From a virus: a stretch of 33,839 nucleotides of DNA. A model generated the notes under the pieces. It was not told where the DNA came from and made no database searches. It worked only from the letters and a program-made list of their open reading frames with translations. Location: the IMG/VR virus record IMGVR_UViG_3300044675_001340, positions 1-33,839 of that record. One strand, given 5' to 3'. Numbering within the stretch: the stretch's first letter is position 1; each line of letters starts with the position of its first letter. Positions 16,626-32,232 of this stretch are shown in pieces. A program made the position numbers and the translations under genes.

Positions 16626-17506
16626 TCCTACCAGCCACCAAGCACACCCGAAACATCCACGAAGTAACCTGCCAATCGGGGCAGGAGTTCTTACTTGTCA
16701 GCGACCTGCATTGGGACAACCCCCATTGCGATAGAGGCTTGCTGAAAAATCACTTGGACGAAGCCGTCAAGCGGAATGCTGCCATCATACTTAATGGCGA
16801 CACCTACTGCTGCATGGGCGGTAAATATGACCGTCGTGCGGACAAGTCCCTGATTCGTCCCGAACACAACACCGACCGATACTTTGACGCTATCGTGGAC
16901 ACCTCGGTGGAATGGTTTGCCCCCTACGCCAAAAACATTCTGCTGATAGGCTACGGCAACCACGAAACCGCTATCATCAAGCATGGCGAAACAGACCTCC
17001 TGCAACGCTTCGCAAGCACCCTCAACTACGCCACAGGGTCAGCGGTTCAGGTTGGGGGTTACGGAGGAACCATTGACATCCGAGTGCTGCACGATACAAT
17101 CCGTGGAGTCAACTTCGTAGTGCATTATTTTCATGGGCATAGTGGGGGAGGCGCGGTCAGCCGCGGAGTAATTCACGATCAGAGGCTCCTTGCCGGGACC
17201 GAAGGCTACGACTTGACTTGGATGGGCCACGTCCACGAATTGTACTACCATCAAAATATGATTCACCGCTATGACCGCTCAACCAAAACCCTCATTCAAA
17301 AACCTATTCACCAACTTCGTACGGCTACTTACAAGGAAGAATGGGACGGAGGCTACATGGGCTTTCATACTGAGCGAGGAAGAGGCCCGAAGCCTTTGGG
17401 AGGCTATTGGTTGAAACTGGAAACATCACGGAATACCAGCAAAGACAACAAGGGTCCCGAACTTCAAGTTCACGCCACCTTCACGCCAGCGGATAGGTTG
17501 TACTAA
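16622..17506 (+). CDS. Calcineurin-like metallophosphoesterase (294 aa)
   Basis: All metal-binding motifs of the superfamily are present in order: Asp28-x-His30 (SDLHWD), Gly59-Asp60, Gly112-Asn113-His114-Glu115, His171-Gly-His173, and Gly202-His203-x-His205. The enzyme should hydrolyse phosphodiesters or phosphomonoesters with a two-metal centre. The substrate cannot be told. It overlaps the spanin-like gene by ATGA and ends convergently with the endolysin gene (3-base overlap of the stop codons). Linkage to lysis genes is unusual. It could act on nucleic acids, nucleotides or an envelope component. Family confidence is high, role unknown. Confidence 0.85.
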   Translation: MILPATKHTRNIHEVTCQSGQEFLLVSDLHWDNPHCDRGLLKNHLDEAVKRNAAIILNGDTYCCMGGKYDRRADKSLIRPEHNTDRYFDAIVDTSVEWFAPYAKNILLIGYGNHETAIIKHGETDLLQRFASTLNYATGSAVQVGGYGGTIDIRVLHDTIRGVNFVVHYFHGHSGGGAVSRGVIHDQRLLAGTEGYDLTWMGHVHELYYHQNMIHRYDRSTKTLIQKPIHQLRTATYKEEWDGGYMGFHTERGRGPKPLGGYWLKLETSRNTSKDNKGPELQVHATFTPADRLY

Positions 17507-17916
17507 CCGGCAGCGGTCAGGTATAGGTAGCCGTATTCCTTTTCAGCATTAAACTGGGGACAGGCTTTCGTAACCCCCGGAAAGTCCCTGTGTCCGCATA
17601 TCCTTGCGGTAGGGTACTTCTTAAGCCAATCTAAAAGCACCACGGCAATTGCTTGACGCTGCCCGATACTACGGTCATCTTTGTCCTTGCCTCCGATATA
17701 ACTGACGTGGAGGCTTGTAGCGTTGTGGCCTTGCACTCCGTTGGTGATGGCACTATCAGGAGCCAAGACCGTTACATTCCCAGTCGAATCAATGATCTTG
17801 TGATAGCCGACCGACTTCCATCCAAGGGCCTCCTTCCAATGCTTGCGGATGGATGCGATGGTCGTATGCTTGGGCGTGGCCGTACAATGGACGACAAGGT
17901 GAGTGATGGTTCTCAT
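17503..17916 (-). CDS. Endolysin, N-acetylmuramoyl-L-alanine amidase (Amidase_2/T7 lysozyme-like, 137 aa)
   Basis: A single Amidase_2 domain spans the whole protein. Zinc ligands are visible: His10 (Val-Val-His-Cys-Thr-Ala), His109 (Cys-Gly-His-Arg-Asp-Phe-Pro-Gly) and Cys119, with Tyr38 and Lys117 in catalytic-type positions. The enzyme cuts the amide between N-acetylmuramic acid and the stem peptide. The size matches T7 lysozyme-type amidases. ATG 17916 is chosen because the upstream minus-strand gene ends there with an ATGA overlap; longer in-frame extensions would run back into that gene. It lacks a signal peptide, so a holin would be needed. It is read from the strand opposite to nearly all other genes. 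Confidence 0.9.
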   Translation of the reverse strand: MRTITHLVVHCTATPKHTTIASIRKHWKEALGWKSVGYHKIIDSTGNVTVLAPDSAITNGVQGHNATSLHVSYIGGKDKDDRSIGQRQAIAVVLLDWLKKYPTARICGHRDFPGVTKACPQFNAEKEYGYLYLTAAG

Positions 17917-18170
17917 TCTTCGGGGTTTAGAGCGTGAAAATAACTGACCTGCACTTCGTCTGCGAGTTTCTGCTGACTTGCGATGCTGACCTCCTTGGTC
18001 CCTGCCCATTGAGCCATGGCAGGATCGTATCCGAGTAGTTCGCAGGCTTTCCTGTATTCCAGCAGGAGGGCGTGGTTGCCTTCCAGATCAGCGTTGTCGA
18101 TGGCGATCATCAGCCTCTCAAGGGCGTTGGTCAGGGCCTTGGCAGGTCGAAGGGAGTGGTATTCGGGCAT
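17913..18170 (-). CDS. Hypothetical protein paired with the endolysin (85 aa)
   Basis: No family is recognised. It is a helical protein with Asn-Ala-Leu-Glu-Arg-Leu-Met-Ile-Ala-Ile-Asp near the N-terminus and Tyr-Arg-Lys-Ala-Cys-Glu-Leu-Leu-Gly-Tyr in the middle, with no membrane segment. It is the first gene of a two-gene minus-strand operon; its stop overlaps the endolysin start (ATGA), so it may control or accompany endolysin translation. The start follows a perfect promoter by 14 bases. Confidence 0.6.
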   Translation of the reverse strand: MPEYHSLRPAKALTNALERLMIAIDNADLEGNHALLLEYRKACELLGYDPAMAQWAGTKEVSIASQQKLADEVQVSYFHALNPEE

Positions 18171-19899: not shown

Positions 19900-20099
19900 A
19901 GCAAGTAATCAATACCATCAAGGCTTTGCGGTTATTATCGCAGAAGCCTCTCAGAGCCTCTCAGTTGCAAGATATTCTTGGAACGAGCAAAGGGGCCACC
20001 TACCGAATCATAAGGGATTTACGGGCCTCTGGAGAGGTCGTAGAGAGAACCCTTTGCACTTACTCAATTAAAACCAAAAACCAAAACCAAGAATCATGA
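19896..20099 (+). CDS. Small winged-helix/HTH DNA-binding protein (67 aa)
   Basis: A helix-turn-helix of the winged type covers most of the protein: Leu-Arg-Ala-Ser-Gln-Leu-Gln-Asp-Ile-Leu-Gly-Thr-Ser-Lys-Gly-Ala-Thr-Tyr-Arg-Ile is the helix-turn-recognition helix, followed by Arg-Asp-Leu-Arg-Ala-Ser-Gly and a short wing. It probably binds DNA as a dimer and could regulate the early operon. It starts in the stop of the previous gene (ATGA) and overlaps the SSB-like gene likewise. Confidence 0.65.
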   Translation: MKQVINTIKALRLLSQKPLRASQLQDILGTSKGATYRIIRDLRASGEVVERTLCTYSIKTKNQNQES

Positions 20100-20365
20100 G
20101 TTACACCCCCCAACCCAACACCTTCACTTTGTTCGCCAACGACAAAGGCGACAACCCGAAACGCCCGGACTACCGAGGCGATGCGGTCCTGCCTGATGGC
20201 ACAAAGATGAAACTGTCATGCTGGCTCAAAGAATCAGCCAACGGCAAGAAGTTTTTGTCAGGTAAAATGGAGCCGATGCAAGAGCAGACCAGCGGTAAAG
20301 TAGAGCCGATTGACCAAAAGGCCAAAGAAAGCATGGAACACCAAGCACATGATTTGCCTTTTTAG
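20096..20365 (+). CDS. Candidate ssDNA-binding protein with SSB-like C-terminal tip (89 aa)
   Basis: The N-terminal 60 residues look like a small beta barrel: Phe-Thr-Leu-Phe-Ala-Asn-Asp-Lys-Gly, Tyr-Arg-Gly-Asp-Ala, Ser-Cys-Trp-Leu-Lys-Glu and Gly-Lys-Lys-Phe-Leu-Ser-Gly-Lys. A flexible polar linker follows, and the protein ends His-Asp-Leu-Pro-Phe. A terminal acidic-hydrophobic Asp-x-Pro-Phe is the hallmark of bacterial and phage SSB proteins, used to recruit replication partners. Position just before the initiator and helicase genes fits. It is shorter than a normal SSB and has no clear OB-fold signature, so the call is a candidate. Confidence 0.5.
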   Translation: MSYTPQPNTFTLFANDKGDNPKRPDYRGDAVLPDGTKMKLSCWLKESANGKKFLSGKMEPMQEQTSGKVEPIDQKAKESMEHQAHDLPF

Positions 20366-20403: not shown

Positions 20404-20463
20404 ATCCGCTTGAAGTCGCAGCCAAGTAGATGTCAGATAAAAGGGTTCCTCAACTAACCCCTG

Positions 20464-20497
20464 CCCCGGCTGCTGCGACCAGTCGGGGTTTTTTTTT
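20464..20497 (+). terminator. Intrinsic terminator or attenuator in front of the replication initiator gene
   Basis: Stem CCCCGGCTG (20464-20472) pairs with CAGTCGGGG (20480-20488), 9 bp with one G-U pair, loop CTGCGAC, followed by nine T residues (20489-20497). The ATG of the next gene is at 20501. It may end the early operon after the SSB-like gene. If transcription starts at 20368-20393 it would instead act as an attenuator in the leader of the initiator gene. Confidence 0.85.
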
Positions 20498-20500
20498 ACC

Positions 20501-21220
20501 ATGGAAAATAGTTGGTACAAACACTCCCCAAGCGATTGGCTCGCAGGTCGAATCAGTCGCAAATCCTTTGAAGTCCAAGGGGCCTTCATCCACATTTGTC
20601 AACTCTACTGGGTCAAGCACGGGCAGTTTACCGCCCATCAAGCAAGCCTTGAGATAGGCAAAGACCTCCTTCAAAAACTGATTGAGTCCGAAATAATCAA
20701 GACCGAAGGCGAAGAAATCCGCATCGACTTCCTTGATTTGCAGATGGAGGGCCTTAACAGGTTAAGCGAAAGAAGGAGGGAGGCAGGCCGTAAAGGAGGC
20801 GAAGTAAAGGGCCAAGCAAGTGCTAAGCAAACCGAAGCAAGTGCTAAGCAAAACCAAGCAAGTGCTAAGCAAACGGAAGCAGATAAGATAAGATTAGATA
20901 AGATAAGAGAAGAAGAAATAACAAACAAAGAGGAGATAAAGAACACTTGTGCAATCTTTGACCAATTTTGGGCTATCTATCCACGCAAGACCGGGAAGCA
21001 GGCAGCGTCAAAGTCCTTTGCAAAGTTGTCCAATGCAGACCAACAGGAAGCCATGAACAACATCTCAAGGCTTTACTCTCAAACACCCGTGCAGTTTGTC
21101 CCTCATGCGGCCACCTACCTCAACGGCAAGCGATGGGAAGATCAAGCCATCCAACGAACACCTAACTTCGCATACTCAAACCTAACCTCCGATGATGAAC
21201 CCCTACCAATTGTCCGCTGA
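20501..21220 (+). CDS. Replication initiator / replisome organizer-like protein (239 aa)
   Basis: The N-terminal 90 residues (Trp-Tyr-Lys-His-Ser-Pro-Ser-Asp-Trp-Leu, then Gly-Ala-Phe-Ile-His-Ile-Cys) look like the winged-helix domain of phage initiator proteins. Residues about 98-130 are a low-complexity linker with three heptads (Ala-Ser-Ala-Lys-Gln-x-x), encoded by 21-base direct repeats. The C-terminal 75 residues (Phe-Asp-Gln-Phe-Trp-Ala-Ile-Tyr-Pro-Arg-Lys, then Ala-Ala-Thr-Tyr-Leu-Asn-Gly-Lys-Arg-Trp) match the conserved end of phage O-like or DnaD-like replication proteins. It overlaps the helicase gene, its probable loading partner. This is the layout of lambda O with its internal origin. 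Confidence 0.7.
   Translation: MENSWYKHSPSDWLAGRISRKSFEVQGAFIHICQLYWVKHGQFTAHQASLEIGKDLLQKLIESEIIKTEGEEIRIDFLDLQMEGLNRLSERRREAGRKGGEVKGQASAKQTEASAKQNQASAKQTEADKIRLDKIREEEITNKEEIKNTCAIFDQFWAIYPRKTGKQAASKSFAKLSNADQQEAMNNISRLYSQTPVQFVPHAATYLNGKRWEDQAIQRTPNFAYSNLTSDDEPLPIVR
20814..20876 (+). repeat. Three 21-base direct repeats (iteron candidates) inside the initiator gene
   Basis: The units start at 20814, 20835 and 20856. The 17-base core AAGCAAGTGCTAAGCAA is identical in all three, and each core contains the symmetric arrangement AGCA-AG-TGCT-A-AGCA. A fourth unit begins at 20877 but degenerates after AAGCA. They keep the reading frame and code for the heptad linker. Iterons in an initiator gene followed by an AT-rich stretch are the plan of the lambda origin. 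Confidence 0.7.
20881..20943 (+). other. A/T- and purine-rich tract beside the iterons, possible origin unwinding element
   Basis: Directly after the repeats, this stretch is made of GATAA-type units (AGATAAGATAAGATTAGATA) and then AGA/AAT-rich sequence, with few C residues. It is clearly richer in A/T than its surroundings. Its side-by-side position with the iterons suits a DNA unwinding element. It also encodes Lys/Glu/Ile-rich linker residues, the simpler explanation. Confidence 0.45.
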
Positions 21221-22460
21221 ACGCAAACTGCTCGGCTGCCTCATGGACAAGTTCGTGAACCGAACCGTCCTGCTAACCCAAATCCCGGAACGCCTATTCA
21301 CAGGCAACAACGTCCTGCTCTACCGGGCCATTGAATCCCTCCACAAAGCAGAGCGAGAGATAGACATCGTAACCGTCTACAAGTACCTTGCAGACCAAGG
21401 CCAAGCCCATGTCCTACTCGAAGGCATCGACCCCGAAGCGGGGCTTGTCAGCAACTGGAAGACCTACGCATCCGACCTCCACGACCTTTGGAAAGAACGT
21501 GAAGAAGCGAGAATCATGGAAGAACTGGCACACGATAGGGACATACCCAAAGCCTTCCAACGCTATCAATCCATCCAAGCCGTTGAGTCCAACGCCTCCG
21601 AATCATCTGCTCACGAACTCGCCAAGGACTTCCTCTTCAACATGAACGAGGTCCGGGAAGGCAGACGCAAGGACCAAATCTATCAAACCTTCATCCGACC
21701 GCTTGACAACATCTGCACCGGGTTCAAGCCGTCCGAGTTCATCCTCGTAGGTGGTAGGCCTGCGATGGGTAAGACACTGCTCGCTCTCCAAATAGCAATG
21801 AACCAAGCCATGGCCGATATTCCCGTCGTGTTCTTCACGATGGAAATGTCAGCAGACCAACTGACCCAACGTATGCTTTCCAACCTCGGAACGATGGACG
21901 GATCAGCGTTCCTCAAACCCGACGAGCGTATCACTACGGAGCAGTTCCTGACCTTGGCACAAAAAGCCGACCAACTCAAAGGCAAGCCTCTCTACATTGT
22001 GGACCTGCATCAAGCAAACCTCGACCGAATCGAAGGCGAAATCGCTAAACTCAAGGCCAAGTTCGGAATCGTTGGCTTTTACCTTGACTACCTGCAACTC
22101 GTAGAACCTGCCAAGATTGACAAACCCAAGCCCAAAATCGAGCAGATGACCAACATCTCCAAGCAACTCAAAGCAATCTGCAAACGGCAAAAGGTATTCG
22201 GGGTCGTGGTTTCTTCGCTATCACGGGCAACCGAAGGCAGGTCCGACCATCGCCCCATCATGTCCGACCTTCGAGAAACGGGGCAACTGGAGTTTGATGC
22301 CGACAAAATCGCCTTTGTCTATCGCCCATACGAACACGATAAGAACGCAGAGCAGGACCTCATGGAAGTCATCTTCCGAAAGAACCGGAACGGAGGGCTT
22401 AAAACCGCACAAGTCCAATGTCAACTGCCTTACACCAAAGCAAACGAATATCCGCTATGA
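21192..22460 (+). CDS. dnaB: Replicative DNA helicase, DnaB-like (422 aa)
   Basis: The N-terminal domain (about 1-105) has the DnaB pattern Ala-Glu-Arg-Lys-Leu-Leu-Gly-Cys-Leu-Met. The RecA-like domain has Walker A Gly187-Gly-Arg-Pro-Ala-Met-Gly-Lys-Thr195, then Phe-Phe-Thr-Met-Glu-Met-Ser, Walker B Phe-Tyr-Leu-Asp-Tyr-Leu-Gln-Leu, Ser-Ser-Leu-Ser-Arg, Leu-Arg-Glu-Thr-Gly-Gln-Leu-Glu and Phe-Arg-Lys-Asn-Arg-Asn-Gly. The enzyme unwinds DNA ahead of the fork as a hexamer. It is somewhat short for DnaB (about 450). The gene begins inside the end of the initiator gene; ATG 21192 and 21195 are both possible starts. Confidence 0.95.
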   Translation: MMNPYQLSAERKLLGCLMDKFVNRTVLLTQIPERLFTGNNVLLYRAIESLHKAEREIDIVTVYKYLADQGQAHVLLEGIDPEAGLVSNWKTYASDLHDLWKEREEARIMEELAHDRDIPKAFQRYQSIQAVESNASESSAHELAKDFLFNMNEVREGRRKDQIYQTFIRPLDNICTGFKPSEFILVGGRPAMGKTLLALQIAMNQAMADIPVVFFTMEMSADQLTQRMLSNLGTMDGSAFLKPDERITTEQFLTLAQKADQLKGKPLYIVDLHQANLDRIEGEIAKLKAKFGIVGFYLDYLQLVEPAKIDKPKPKIEQMTNISKQLKAICKRQKVFGVVVSSLSRATEGRSDHRPIMSDLRETGQLEFDADKIAFVYRPYEHDKNAEQDLMEVIFRKNRNGGLKTAQVQCQLPYTKANEYPL

Positions 22461-23316: not shown

Positions 23317-23516
23317 AACGATTCTTAGTATTTGCAGGTGATGCCTATTATCCTGAGGGAGGGATGAATGATTTTCAGGAGGACTTTGACACCTTGGAAG
23401 AGGCAAGAAGTTTTGAAACAAAAATCAAAGAAAAGTTTAAACTTTTATGGAAGGACAGCTGGAAGAATTTCAAATGGAGTGCCATTTGGGATTCGGAAAC
23501 ACGAACCCACGTTTAA
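23313..23516 (+). CDS. Hypothetical small protein (67 aa)
   Basis: A compact alpha/beta protein: Lys-Arg-Phe-Leu-Val-Phe-Ala-Gly-Asp strand, acidic loop, a helix with Glu-Glu-Ala-Arg-Ser-Phe-Glu-Thr-Lys, and a C-terminal strand (Trp-Ser-Ala-Ile-Trp-Asp-Ser-Glu-Thr). Small early phage proteins of this kind are frequent but uncharacterised. It is coupled to the lipoprotein gene by ATGA. Confidence 0.55.
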   Translation: MKRFLVFAGDAYYPEGGMNDFQEDFDTLEEARSFETKIKEKFKLLWKDSWKNFKWSAIWDSETRTHV

Positions 23517-23523
23517 TACCCAA

Positions 23524-23603
23524 TCGGGTATAATGTATAGAAAATCCCAAAATTTATACGCGTTCGGGTATAATGTAAAGAAAAACCCAAAAACTATACG
23601 CAT
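23524..23603 (+). repeat. Two tandem 40-base repeats in an intergenic region
   Basis: Units start at 23524 and 23564 (both TCGGGTATAATGTA...), with 35 of 40 positions equal; a third unit begins TCG at 23604 and then ends. In the first unit GTATAA near the left end and TTATAC near the right end form an inverted repeat; the second has five bases of it. The 165-base gap 23517-23681 has no gene. It may bind a phage regulator or act in replication. Confidence 0.65.
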
Positions 23604-23612
23604 TCGATAACC

Positions 23613-24462: not shown

Positions 24463-25730
24463 TGAAGTACGGTTCAGTTTGTTCAGGCATTGAGGCAGCC
24501 TCAGTCGCTTGGCACGACCTTGGATGGGAACCGCAATGGTTCTCCGAGATTGAGCAATTCCCTTCCGAAGTCTTAAAGTATCGTTTTCCCCATGTCCCAA
24601 ACCTTGGCGACATGACAAGAATCAACCAAAACCCAATCGCAGATGAACGACCAATTGACCTTCTCGTGGGCGGAACCCCCTGCCAATCCTTCTCCGTTGC
24701 AGGACTTCGCAAAGGTCTTGCTGACCCAAGAGGAAACCTCATGCTTACTTTTCTTTCAATCGCTGATAAATTCCGTCCCAAGTGGGTCGTGTGGGAAAAT
24801 GTCCCCGGTGTATTGTCGTCCAACGGAGGAAAAGATTTTGGAACCTTCCTTGGGGCGTTGGGGGAAATCGGGTATGGGTTCGCCTACAGAGTTCTTGACG
24901 CTCAATACTTCGGAGTGGCACAAAGACGCAGAAGAGTGTTTGTTGTCGGATACCTTGGAGATTGGAGACCTCCCGCAGCGGTTTTATTTGAGTCCGAAAG
25001 CCTGCAAGGGAATACTAAACCGAGCCGAAAAAAGAGGGAAGAAGTTGCCTCCGATGCTCAAGGAAGCGTTGGAACAACAGGCATCCCAAATGTCTGCCCA
25101 ACTATTGGATGCGAACTTGCAAAACAAGTAAATAATCAAATGATAATGAATGCAGAGGCATTCTTTCACGTAGTAAATCTCCAACCGATAGCCTTTGAGC
25201 CGGGTAAGATGCAAAGGCTTGGGTATGGGTATTCGGATAATGGAACATCCCCAACATTAAGGTCAGAGCCGGGAGATAATCAATTAGCAGTTGCCCAACC
25301 CATTGCCGTGGATACTTTTAACCAAACCATCAACGAGCGCACATCGCAGACCATTGGCTCGTCAGCGTCTGACGTTAATAACTATGGAGCCGTGTTGCAA
25401 CCGATGGCCTTTCCAATTAATACTGAAAATATGTTTGAAGGTTCAACATCTTATGGCAGAACTGTTGGCGAAAACAACGAACCATCATTTGCGCTAACAA
25501 AGGCGCATAGTCACGCAGTTGGCACTAATATGGCTATCCGAAGGCTGACCCCCAAGGAGTGCGAACGCTTGCAGGGATTCCCCGATGATTGGACAAAGAT
25601 TCCATACCGCAACAAGGAAGCCGACCAATGCCCCGATGGGCCAAGGTACAAGGCTTGCGGTAACTCAATGGCCGTCCCGGTGATGCGGTGGATAGGGGAG
25701 AGAATAAACTTAATTGAATCAATGCTTTAA
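24462..25730 (+). CDS. DNA (cytosine-5) methyltransferase, Dcm-like (422 aa)
   Basis: All core C5 methyltransferase motifs are visible: motif I Gly-Ser-Val-Cys-Ser-Gly-Ile-Glu-Ala-Ala near residue 3, motif IV Gly-Gly-Thr-Pro-Cys74-Gln-Ser-Phe (catalytic Cys), motif VI Trp-Glu-Asn-Val-Pro-Gly, motif VIII Gln-Arg-Arg-Arg-Arg-Val-Phe, and near the C-terminus Arg-Arg-Leu-Thr-Pro-Lys-Glu-Cys-Glu-Arg-Leu-Gln-Gly-Phe-Pro plus Gly-Asn-Ser-Met-Ala-Val-Pro. The target recognition region (about 180-350) gives unknown specificity. It would methylate phage DNA, perhaps against host restriction. No cognate endonuclease gene is seen. A second frame overlaps its first half. Confidence 0.92.
   Translation: MKYGSVCSGIEAASVAWHDLGWEPQWFSEIEQFPSEVLKYRFPHVPNLGDMTRINQNPIADERPIDLLVGGTPCQSFSVAGLRKGLADPRGNLMLTFLSIADKFRPKWVVWENVPGVLSSNGGKDFGTFLGALGEIGYGFAYRVLDAQYFGVAQRRRRVFVVGYLGDWRPPAAVLFESESLQGNTKPSRKKREEVASDAQGSVGTTGIPNVCPTIGCELAKQVNNQMIMNAEAFFHVVNLQPIAFEPGKMQRLGYGYSDNGTSPTLRSEPGDNQLAVAQPIAVDTFNQTINERTSQTIGSSASDVNNYGAVLQPMAFPINTENMFEGSTSYGRTVGENNEPSFALTKAHSHAVGTNMAIRRLTPKECERLQGFPDDWTKIPYRNKEADQCPDGPRYKACGNSMAVPVMRWIGERINLIESML
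24643..25131 (+). CDS. Overlapping reading frame within the methyltransferase gene (162 aa)
   Basis: In the +1 frame of the methyltransferase gene there is a 162-codon frame starting with ATG. The product includes Phe-Leu-Thr-Leu-Asn-Thr-Ser-Glu-Trp, then Leu-Pro-Gln-Arg-Phe-Tyr-Leu-Ser-Pro-Lys-Ala-Cys, then Ile-Leu-Asn-Arg-Ala-Glu-Lys-Arg-Gly-Lys-Lys-Leu-Pro-Pro. From memory this pattern is recurrently annotated in other phages as a small protein over dcm-type genes, which suggests a real dual-coding gene. I cannot check this here. It could also be a by-product of the conserved methyltransferase codons. It ends in the variable recognition region. Confidence 0.5.
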   Translation: MNDQLTFSWAEPPANPSPLQDFAKVLLTQEETSCLLFFQSLINSVPSGSCGKMSPVYCRPTEEKILEPSLGRWGKSGMGSPTEFLTLNTSEWHKDAEECLLSDTLEIGDLPQRFYLSPKACKGILNRAEKRGKKLPPMLKEALEQQASQMSAQLLDANLQNK

Positions 25731-25740
25731 CCCAAACAAA

Positions 25741-25911
25741 ATGAACCAAATAATCCTATTAATAACGGCTTTTGTGTTATACCTTTTATGGTTTGTAATT
25801 ACCATAGTCTTAACCATTACTATTATTGGTTGGTATTTTTTAAGCATAATGGACGATTATGGTTGGTTTGATATTCCGAATCAAATTATAGACAAAACCA
25901 TAAATCCTTAA
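25741..25911 (+). CDS. AT-rich membrane microprotein (56 aa)
   Basis: ATG 25741 opens a frame whose first 37 residues are nearly all hydrophobic (two close or one long membrane helix: ILLITAFVLYLLWF and IVLTITIIGWYFL), followed by Asp-Asp-Tyr-Gly-Trp-Phe-Asp-Ile-Pro. The base composition is far more A/T-rich than its neighbours, suggesting recent transfer. Function unknown; a holin-like or superinfection-related role is possible but unsupported. Confidence 0.55.
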   Translation: MNQIILLITAFVLYLLWFVITIVLTITIIGWYFLSIMDDYGWFDIPNQIIDKTINP

Positions 25912-25927
25912 ACATAAAAGACTCACC

Positions 25928-31666: not shown

Positions 31667-32232
31667 AACTCCAAGACCTCACCATTGACCAGTTCCAACG
31701 CATCGGAGCCATTGAGTTCTCCAGCGTCCTCGGGGACTACGACAAGCGTGCAGGAGTCGTTGCAATCGTTGAGGGGGTGGATATATCGTTCGTGAGAGAA
31801 ATGCCCGCCAAGGCAGTCCTAAAGCGTTACAAGGCCATCATAAGCGAGTGGAACGCATTGCCTGCATTGGGGTACAAGCGAAAGTTCAAAGCCGGGGGCA
31901 AGTGGTGGATTCCAACGGTGTTCACGGACGAGTTGACGGCGGGGCAGTTGATTGAACTCATGGACGCAAACACGACCGACGAAAAGCAACTGCTCCAAAA
32001 CCTACACCGAATCATGGCGACCTTGTGCAGGGAAGGCGGTCTATTCGGATATTTCCCCAAGAAATACGACGGAGCTGCCCATGCGGAGCGAGCCGAACTC
32101 ATGAAGAAGCACGCCAAGGTGGGCGATGTTTGGGGGGTTGTCAGTTTTTTTTTGCTAAGTTCCGAATCCTACTTGAAAGTTTTGAGCGACTATTCCAAGC
32201 ACCTGATGAAGACGGCAGGGGAGTTGACGTAA
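31663..32232 (+). CDS. Tail assembly chaperone, short form (gpG-like, 189 aa)
   Basis: ATG 31663 overlaps the methyltransferase stop. The protein begins Met-Lys-Leu-Gln-Asp-Leu-Thr-Ile-Asp-Gln-Phe-Gln-Arg and has Trp-Trp-Ile-Pro-Thr-Val-Phe near 83-89 and Leu-Met-Asp-Ala-Asn near 102-106. Tail assembly chaperones of Bacteroidota phages have this type of N-terminal layout, and the gene lies at the head of the tail cluster. They bind the tape measure protein during tail assembly. A run of nine T near its end gives a -1 shift to a longer form (next entry). Confidence 0.6.
   Translation: MKLQDLTIDQFQRIGAIEFSSVLGDYDKRAGVVAIVEGVDISFVREMPAKAVLKRYKAIISEWNALPALGYKRKFKAGGKWWIPTVFTDELTAGQLIELMDANTTDEKQLLQNLHRIMATLCREGGLFGYFPKKYDGAAHAERAELMKKHAKVGDVWGVVSFFLLSSESYLKVLSDYSKHLMKTAGELT

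Follow-up and report, generated by a model that had tools for sequence, protein, structure and literature searches.

Iteron plasmids carry initiator-bound direct repeats beside an A/T-rich opening site, and the repeats usually lie outside the rep gene, with spacer lengths free of codon constraint. In lambda and the Stx phages, origins within the initiator gene are established; extra iterons in Stx-phage O lengthen the protein (13 aa), and, according to work cited there, lambda-type unwinding requires two iterons plus the tract (PMC7466680). The lactococcal phage proteins TP901-1 ORF13 and Tuc2009 Rep2009 bind direct repeats in their own genes, which form the origin region (PMC8965321), and in SPP1, which encodes a separate helicase loader, oriL is embedded in gene 38, the replisome-organizer gene for G38P (PMC5499656).

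Here we describe a locus in the window, by which we mean the whole 33,839-nucleotide stretch of viral DNA that was analysed (IMG/VR record IMGVR_UViG_3300044675_001340). Judged by comparison of sequences, the linker-coding part of its initiator gene is most likely a lambda-like replication origin. An earlier sequence-only reading had proposed the plan of lambda O, with iterons and an AT-rich region within the initiator gene; this plan is matched by the locus, and in both the window and lambda the A/T-rich, purine-biased tract lies 3' of the iterons with its purine-rich strand as the coding strand. The likeness is one of layout: lambda has four annotated 18-bp iterons spaced 20–24 bp, whereas the window has 21-bp units of 11 + 10, the sequences differ, and in the window the phage's own helicase gene comes directly after the initiator gene, without a lambda P-like gene in between. 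TP901-1 and Tuc2009 likewise have direct repeats within their own initiator genes, but TP901-1 rep has a different repeat, and in it no phased AGCA boxes come after an AG.KGG junction motif. SPP1, likened by description, shares an origin within an initiator-type gene, and the iteron plasmids share direct repeats and an A/T-rich stretch but differ in where these usually lie.

Gene Setting and Predicted Fold of the Initiator

The initiator gene is flanked by the gene for an SSB-like protein upstream and that for a DnaB helicase downstream, and the start of the helicase gene overlaps the end of the initiator gene (Table 1). Pfam gave no match for the initiator protein, and Rfam gave no RNA families in the whole window. 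The AF2 model of the N-terminal domain has helices at residues 10–14, 23–38, 45–52 and 54–62 and strands at 67–69 and 72–74, with pLDDT of about 74–90 for residues 11–90. The best Foldseek match for this domain, the DnaD N-domain (2vn2), is weak (E 0.35), and its VIA-align comparison with the DnaD N-domain (Z 5.4) is tied with unrelated winged helices. The model for DUF6291, the N-terminus of some relatives, is all-helical and has no wing. The C-terminal domain likely contacts the helicase.

Table 1. Features of the initiator locus and its neighbors in the window
Feature	Position	Strand	Evidence or remark
Candidate single-strand DNA-binding protein (SSB-like) gene	20096..20365	+	PHROG 18154, 1.3e-6
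Replication initiator gene, 239 aa	20501..21220	+	PHROG 9327 primosomal protein, 1.5e-21; PHROG 270 replication initiation, 2.6e-17
N-terminal domain, residues 1–94, predicted winged helix	20501..20782	+	AF2 model
AGRKGG motif, domain/linker junction	20783..20800	+	AGxxGG before AGCA boxes, AGxxSA before TTCAAC boxes in relatives
Iteron array, three 21-bp repeats built of seven AAGCA boxes	20814..20881	+	TRF, repeat search, codon freeze, synonymous shuffle
Candidate DNA unwinding element, (GATAA)n purine/A-rich tract	20881..20941	+	Window extreme of instability and purine bias; codon identity 94%
C-terminal domain (FWAIYPRKTGK...)	20951..21217	+	Exchanged between types separately from the N-terminal module
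DnaB-type replicative helicase gene	21192..22460	+	PF03796, 4.1e-60; PF00772, 5.8e-8

Three further features of the window were observed. Directly before the initiator start codon, a GC-rich hairpin followed by nine T (20463–20498) is terminator-like and is a possible attenuator of the initiator and helicase genes; relatives have similar translated sequence upstream of the initiator. An amidase (endolysin-like) gene at 17503–18009 lies on the minus strand, other genes being mostly on the plus strand. A 40-bp tandem repeat at 23516–23606 (TRF score 133), whose copies hold a GGGTATAATGTA-like stretch, perhaps represents duplicated promoters or operators.

Iteron Array and Adjacent Tract

The sequence AGCAAGTGCTAAGCA occurs in three exact copies inside the initiator gene, at 20815, 20836 and 20857, bearing out the earlier description of three 21-base direct repeats in the linker; the internal symmetry given for them (AGCA-AG-TGCT-A-AGCA) was also found. 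Elsewhere in the window there is a single match at up to three mismatches, and it has three. TRF calls the array at a period of 21 bp (score 115) and also at 11 bp. The finer unit, absent from the earlier description, is AAGCA, which recurs at 20814, 20825, 20835, 20846, 20856, 20867 and 20877 at distances that alternate between 11 and 10 bp, close to one turn of the helix; the next longest phased run of this type in the window has only two members. Because 21 bp is both two helical turns and seven codons, the window's initiator protein looks repetitive. Few short-period self-matches in the window are as strong as those of the array and of the 5/10-bp repeats in the tract.

A GATAA-containing A/T- and purine-rich tract had been noted directly after the repeats, and GATAA units indeed occupy 20881–20913 (TRF period 5). 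By nearest-neighbor calculation, no 40- or 60-bp stretch in the whole 33.8 kb has a lower stability than 20882–20941, and purine bias in the window also peaks there (40- and 60-bp windows). By the same measure, the lambda tract lies in the lowest 0.7% of its genome for stability (40-bp windows) and in the highest 0.1% for purine bias. Cumulative GC skew, a check proposed with the sequence-only reading, has its minimum elsewhere in this linear fragment, at 31,731 and not at the repeats. We rejected skew as an origin test here because lambda's own cumulative minimum, at base 103, is far from its origin near 39.1 kb.

Cassette Swapping among Relatives

Relatives of the initiator fall into three N-terminal types (I, II and III), and each of these combines with two out of the three types of C-terminal domain. 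GTGCTAAGCAA is present in all 46 classified genes of type I, the window's close kin included; all 38 classified type II genes carry TTGAAC boxes; and all 16 classified type III genes, with a DUF6291 N-terminus, carry CTAACC boxes. The box type is constant within an N-terminal type, whichever C-terminal type comes next. Between the window and types II-CA and III-CA, the SSB-like protein is 85–92% and DnaB 97–99% identical, whereas the N-terminal domain is 43% identical to that of II-CA and has no convincing similarity to that of III-CA. The SSB-like flank thus stays when the initiator cassette is swapped, and because the flanking SSB and DnaB are near-identical around a divergent cassette, the comparison indicates that the N-terminal domain is exchanged together with boxes and tract, as a unit. 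Neighboring sequences tend to be transferred jointly in any case, yet the swapped piece always brings its own boxes and tract. A profile search of genome contigs with the N-terminal alignment returned no relatives. Judging by the relatives found otherwise, the phage probably infects Bacteroidota.

Constraint on DNA Rather than Protein

We compared codons at shared residues among relatives less than 80% identical. Within the repeats the same codon is used at 95% of these residues, and within the tract at 94%; the figure is 65% for the N-terminal domain, 59% for the C-terminal one and 30% immediately before the repeats. In a synonymous shuffle that held the protein fixed and drew codons by the phage's own usage, the linker scored 45 for repeats, compared with a mean of 3.96 and a maximum of 31 over 5000 recodings (p = 0.0002). 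The annotated iteron region of lambda O, used as a positive control, passed the same test (p = 0.0005), and 126-bp windows of the initiator gene away from the array and tract gave nothing significant. Type I and type II relatives gave p = 0.002–0.004; type III, scored with exact 8-mers, gave a weak result (p = 0.05–0.14).

The other types place their boxes in two or three frames. Of 31 distinct type II genes, 29 have GTTGAA in two frames, with spacings of 11, 21 and 22 bp; among type III genes, 11 of 11 have AACC in more than one, mostly at 11 bp. A step of 11 bp is not divisible by three and changes the frame, so that a box yields different residues from one copy to the next. Among the relatives compared, we saw none in which the repeat persists in the peptide but is gone from the DNA. 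Recent transfer of the segment between phages could account for part of the codon freeze; the sharp edges of the freeze, together with the other results, argue for selection acting on the DNA. The DNA-versus-protein comparison suggested earlier, now run, favors DNA (frozen codons, multiframe boxes and copies outside genes), and the idea that the origin shapes the linker gains support from the codon freeze, the shuffle and the use of several frames. The linker peptide ASAKQ(T/N)(E/Q) and the DKIRLDKIREE run that follows are very probably translations of DNA signals.

Junction Motif and Boxes across Initiator Families

Scanning viral contigs for the AGCA pair found it in the linkers of initiators with DUF6291, Lin1244_N and DUF1376 N-termini. 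When three copies of TTCAAC at 11-bp steps were sought from the DNA alone, at least 111 distinct places were found; among the 111 matches listed, 91 come directly after AGxxSA in an open reading frame and AGxxGG precedes none, and in the AGCA set 63 follow AGxxGG and one is a spurious SA-type match that is not an initiator, all of these counts including related sequences, so that p-values on them overstate. The linker of the Cellulophaga phage Nekkels_1 initiator also has TTCAAC boxes, read from the sequence by eye. An AACC-triplet scan of viral contigs was set aside, as it has only 15 fixed bases and by our estimate its matches could be mostly chance.

The pairing of motif and box spans relatives of different N-terminal families, and the split persists inside two N-terminal clusters (69 vs. 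44 and 19 vs. 3). A tree of the larger cluster, built on few columns and poorly resolved with long branches, requires at least three motif/box switches. From the protein side, we took genomes of Bacteroidia and Lachnospirales, chose genes in them by Pfam domain and scored these genes for motif and boxes. AGCA boxes were present in six of six [AS]GxxGG genes and none of ten NGxxGG genes, a split of A/S versus N that was drawn from the same data on which it is scored. L689 and L690, both positives, and L697 lie in genomes already flagged by the DNA scan; without these three, the counts are 3/3 and 0/10. The NGxxGG proteins L723, L724, L725 and L738, and also L721, have AACC boxes at 10/11-bp steps, and L716, L720 and L731 have none. 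Most Lin1244_N proteins have neither the motif nor, as far as scored, boxes, and L230 is an exception to the pairing, with AGLRGGKPK beside AACC.

These patterns lead us to suggest, tentatively, that many tailed-phage initiators, belonging to several N-terminal families (winged helix/DUF1376, Lin1244_N and DUF6291), share a grammar of boxes one turn apart in the DNA that codes for the linker, and that a portable junction motif might read the DNA. The pairs would be AGxxGG with AGCA, AGxxSA with TTCAAC and GG[RK]P with AACC, and it is conceivable, although doubtful, that their members switch together across phages of different bacterial phyla.

Boxes and a GATAAG-like purine tract also occur outside any gene, on some phage contigs (L300, L308, L324, L325, L279 and L320). 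These copies are mostly near a terminase large-subunit gene, and the spacing in the L300 group is 22 bp. Searched with an alignment profile that had no positive control, these fragments, contigs of 5–15 kb, gave no initiator genes of the tested families, an outcome that carries no weight under these conditions.

Proposed Mechanism and Alternative Readings

The architecture of the sequence and its evolution are what we observe, and from them we infer a course of binding, melting, helicase loading and origin use. Initiator molecules would bind the helically phased AAGCA boxes of the three iterons and stack on one face of the DNA; the stack would melt the adjacent GATAA purine-rich tract, and the C-terminal domain would then bring the phage's own DnaB, encoded next, onto the opened strand.

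The repeats could instead be a feature of the protein, a flexible, charged linker that slippage during replication had made longer, the DNA itself playing no part. Such slippage fits the copy number of two to four in-frame units and the window's period of a whole number of codons, but not the freezing of codons at 95% across diverged relatives, the shuffle result, the placing of the same box in more than one frame by other types or the boxes and tract outside genes; we consider this account largely refuted and hardly credible. That the boxes are operators through which the initiator/helicase operon regulates itself, with the true origin elsewhere, is improbable. A candidate for such an origin is the A/T-rich 25705–25926, within which 25784–25843 comes second among the window's 60-bp stretches for low stability, and the U-run hairpin just before the initiator start means that the operon may be regulated. 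The 25.7–25.9 kb stretch, however, has no iteron array, the boxes lie 300 bp past the start codon, where an operator would be unusual, and the unwinding tract travels with them.

The remaining alternatives concern what reads the boxes. A host factor, rather than the phage initiator, is a very unlikely reader: the AGCA box does occur with N-terminal domains of different families and on some fragments with no detected initiator gene, but three box types occur in phages with near-identical SSB and DnaB neighbors, and so probably in related hosts, and the box follows the initiator cassette. A less remote variant keeps the locus as an origin and has the boxes read mainly by the junction motif (AGxxGG, AGxxSA or GG[RK]P) and not by the winged helix. 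The near-exclusive pairing in the scans, its persistence within the two N-terminal clusters and the protein-side contrast all speak for this variant. We nevertheless regard it as possible rather than probable: the motif adjoins the boxes and may simply travel along, independent switches are few (a minimum of three, on one poorly resolved tree), and there are exceptions such as L230.

In-gene origins are already known; as far as open-licence papers show, what is new is the one-turn box grammar common to several initiator families, the gene-free copies and the pairing of boxes with the junction motif; in these papers we found no account of the Pfam domains concerned as replication initiators or of the box grammar. 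Boxes at 10–11 bp after AGxxGG, AGxxSA or GG[RK]P, followed by an A/T-rich tract, would allow origins to be found in uncultured phages from sequence alone, and the motif–box pairing makes origin recognition by such initiators directly testable. The locus would be a clear example of DNA that dictates the protein segment it encodes, and the swapping of initiator and origin as a unit would explain why the replication modules of near-identical phages contain different initiators.

Other Repeats at Related Loci

Many matches to the AGCA pattern in bacterial chromosomes were judged unrelated, in particular the tandem TTGCTAAGCAA of Prevotellaceae. This repeat occurs at 21 bp in L346, L348, L364, L405 and other Prevotellaceae loci, several per genome, mostly in stretches with no long gene, and these are not initiator genes. 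AGCA box pairs lie within sequence N-terminal to the linker in Lin1244_N-type proteins (L280, L283, L327 and L378), and L521 has a TTCAAC box pair inside a window-like N-terminal domain. The initiators of Arthrobacter phage Renna12 and Pseudomonas phage VB_EV13 (L445 1354–1489; L444 1421–1467) have a related C-terminal domain, but their linkers contain other repeats (22-bp GGGGTGAACG and 11-bp GAACCGTCCTT; CTGATTCC).
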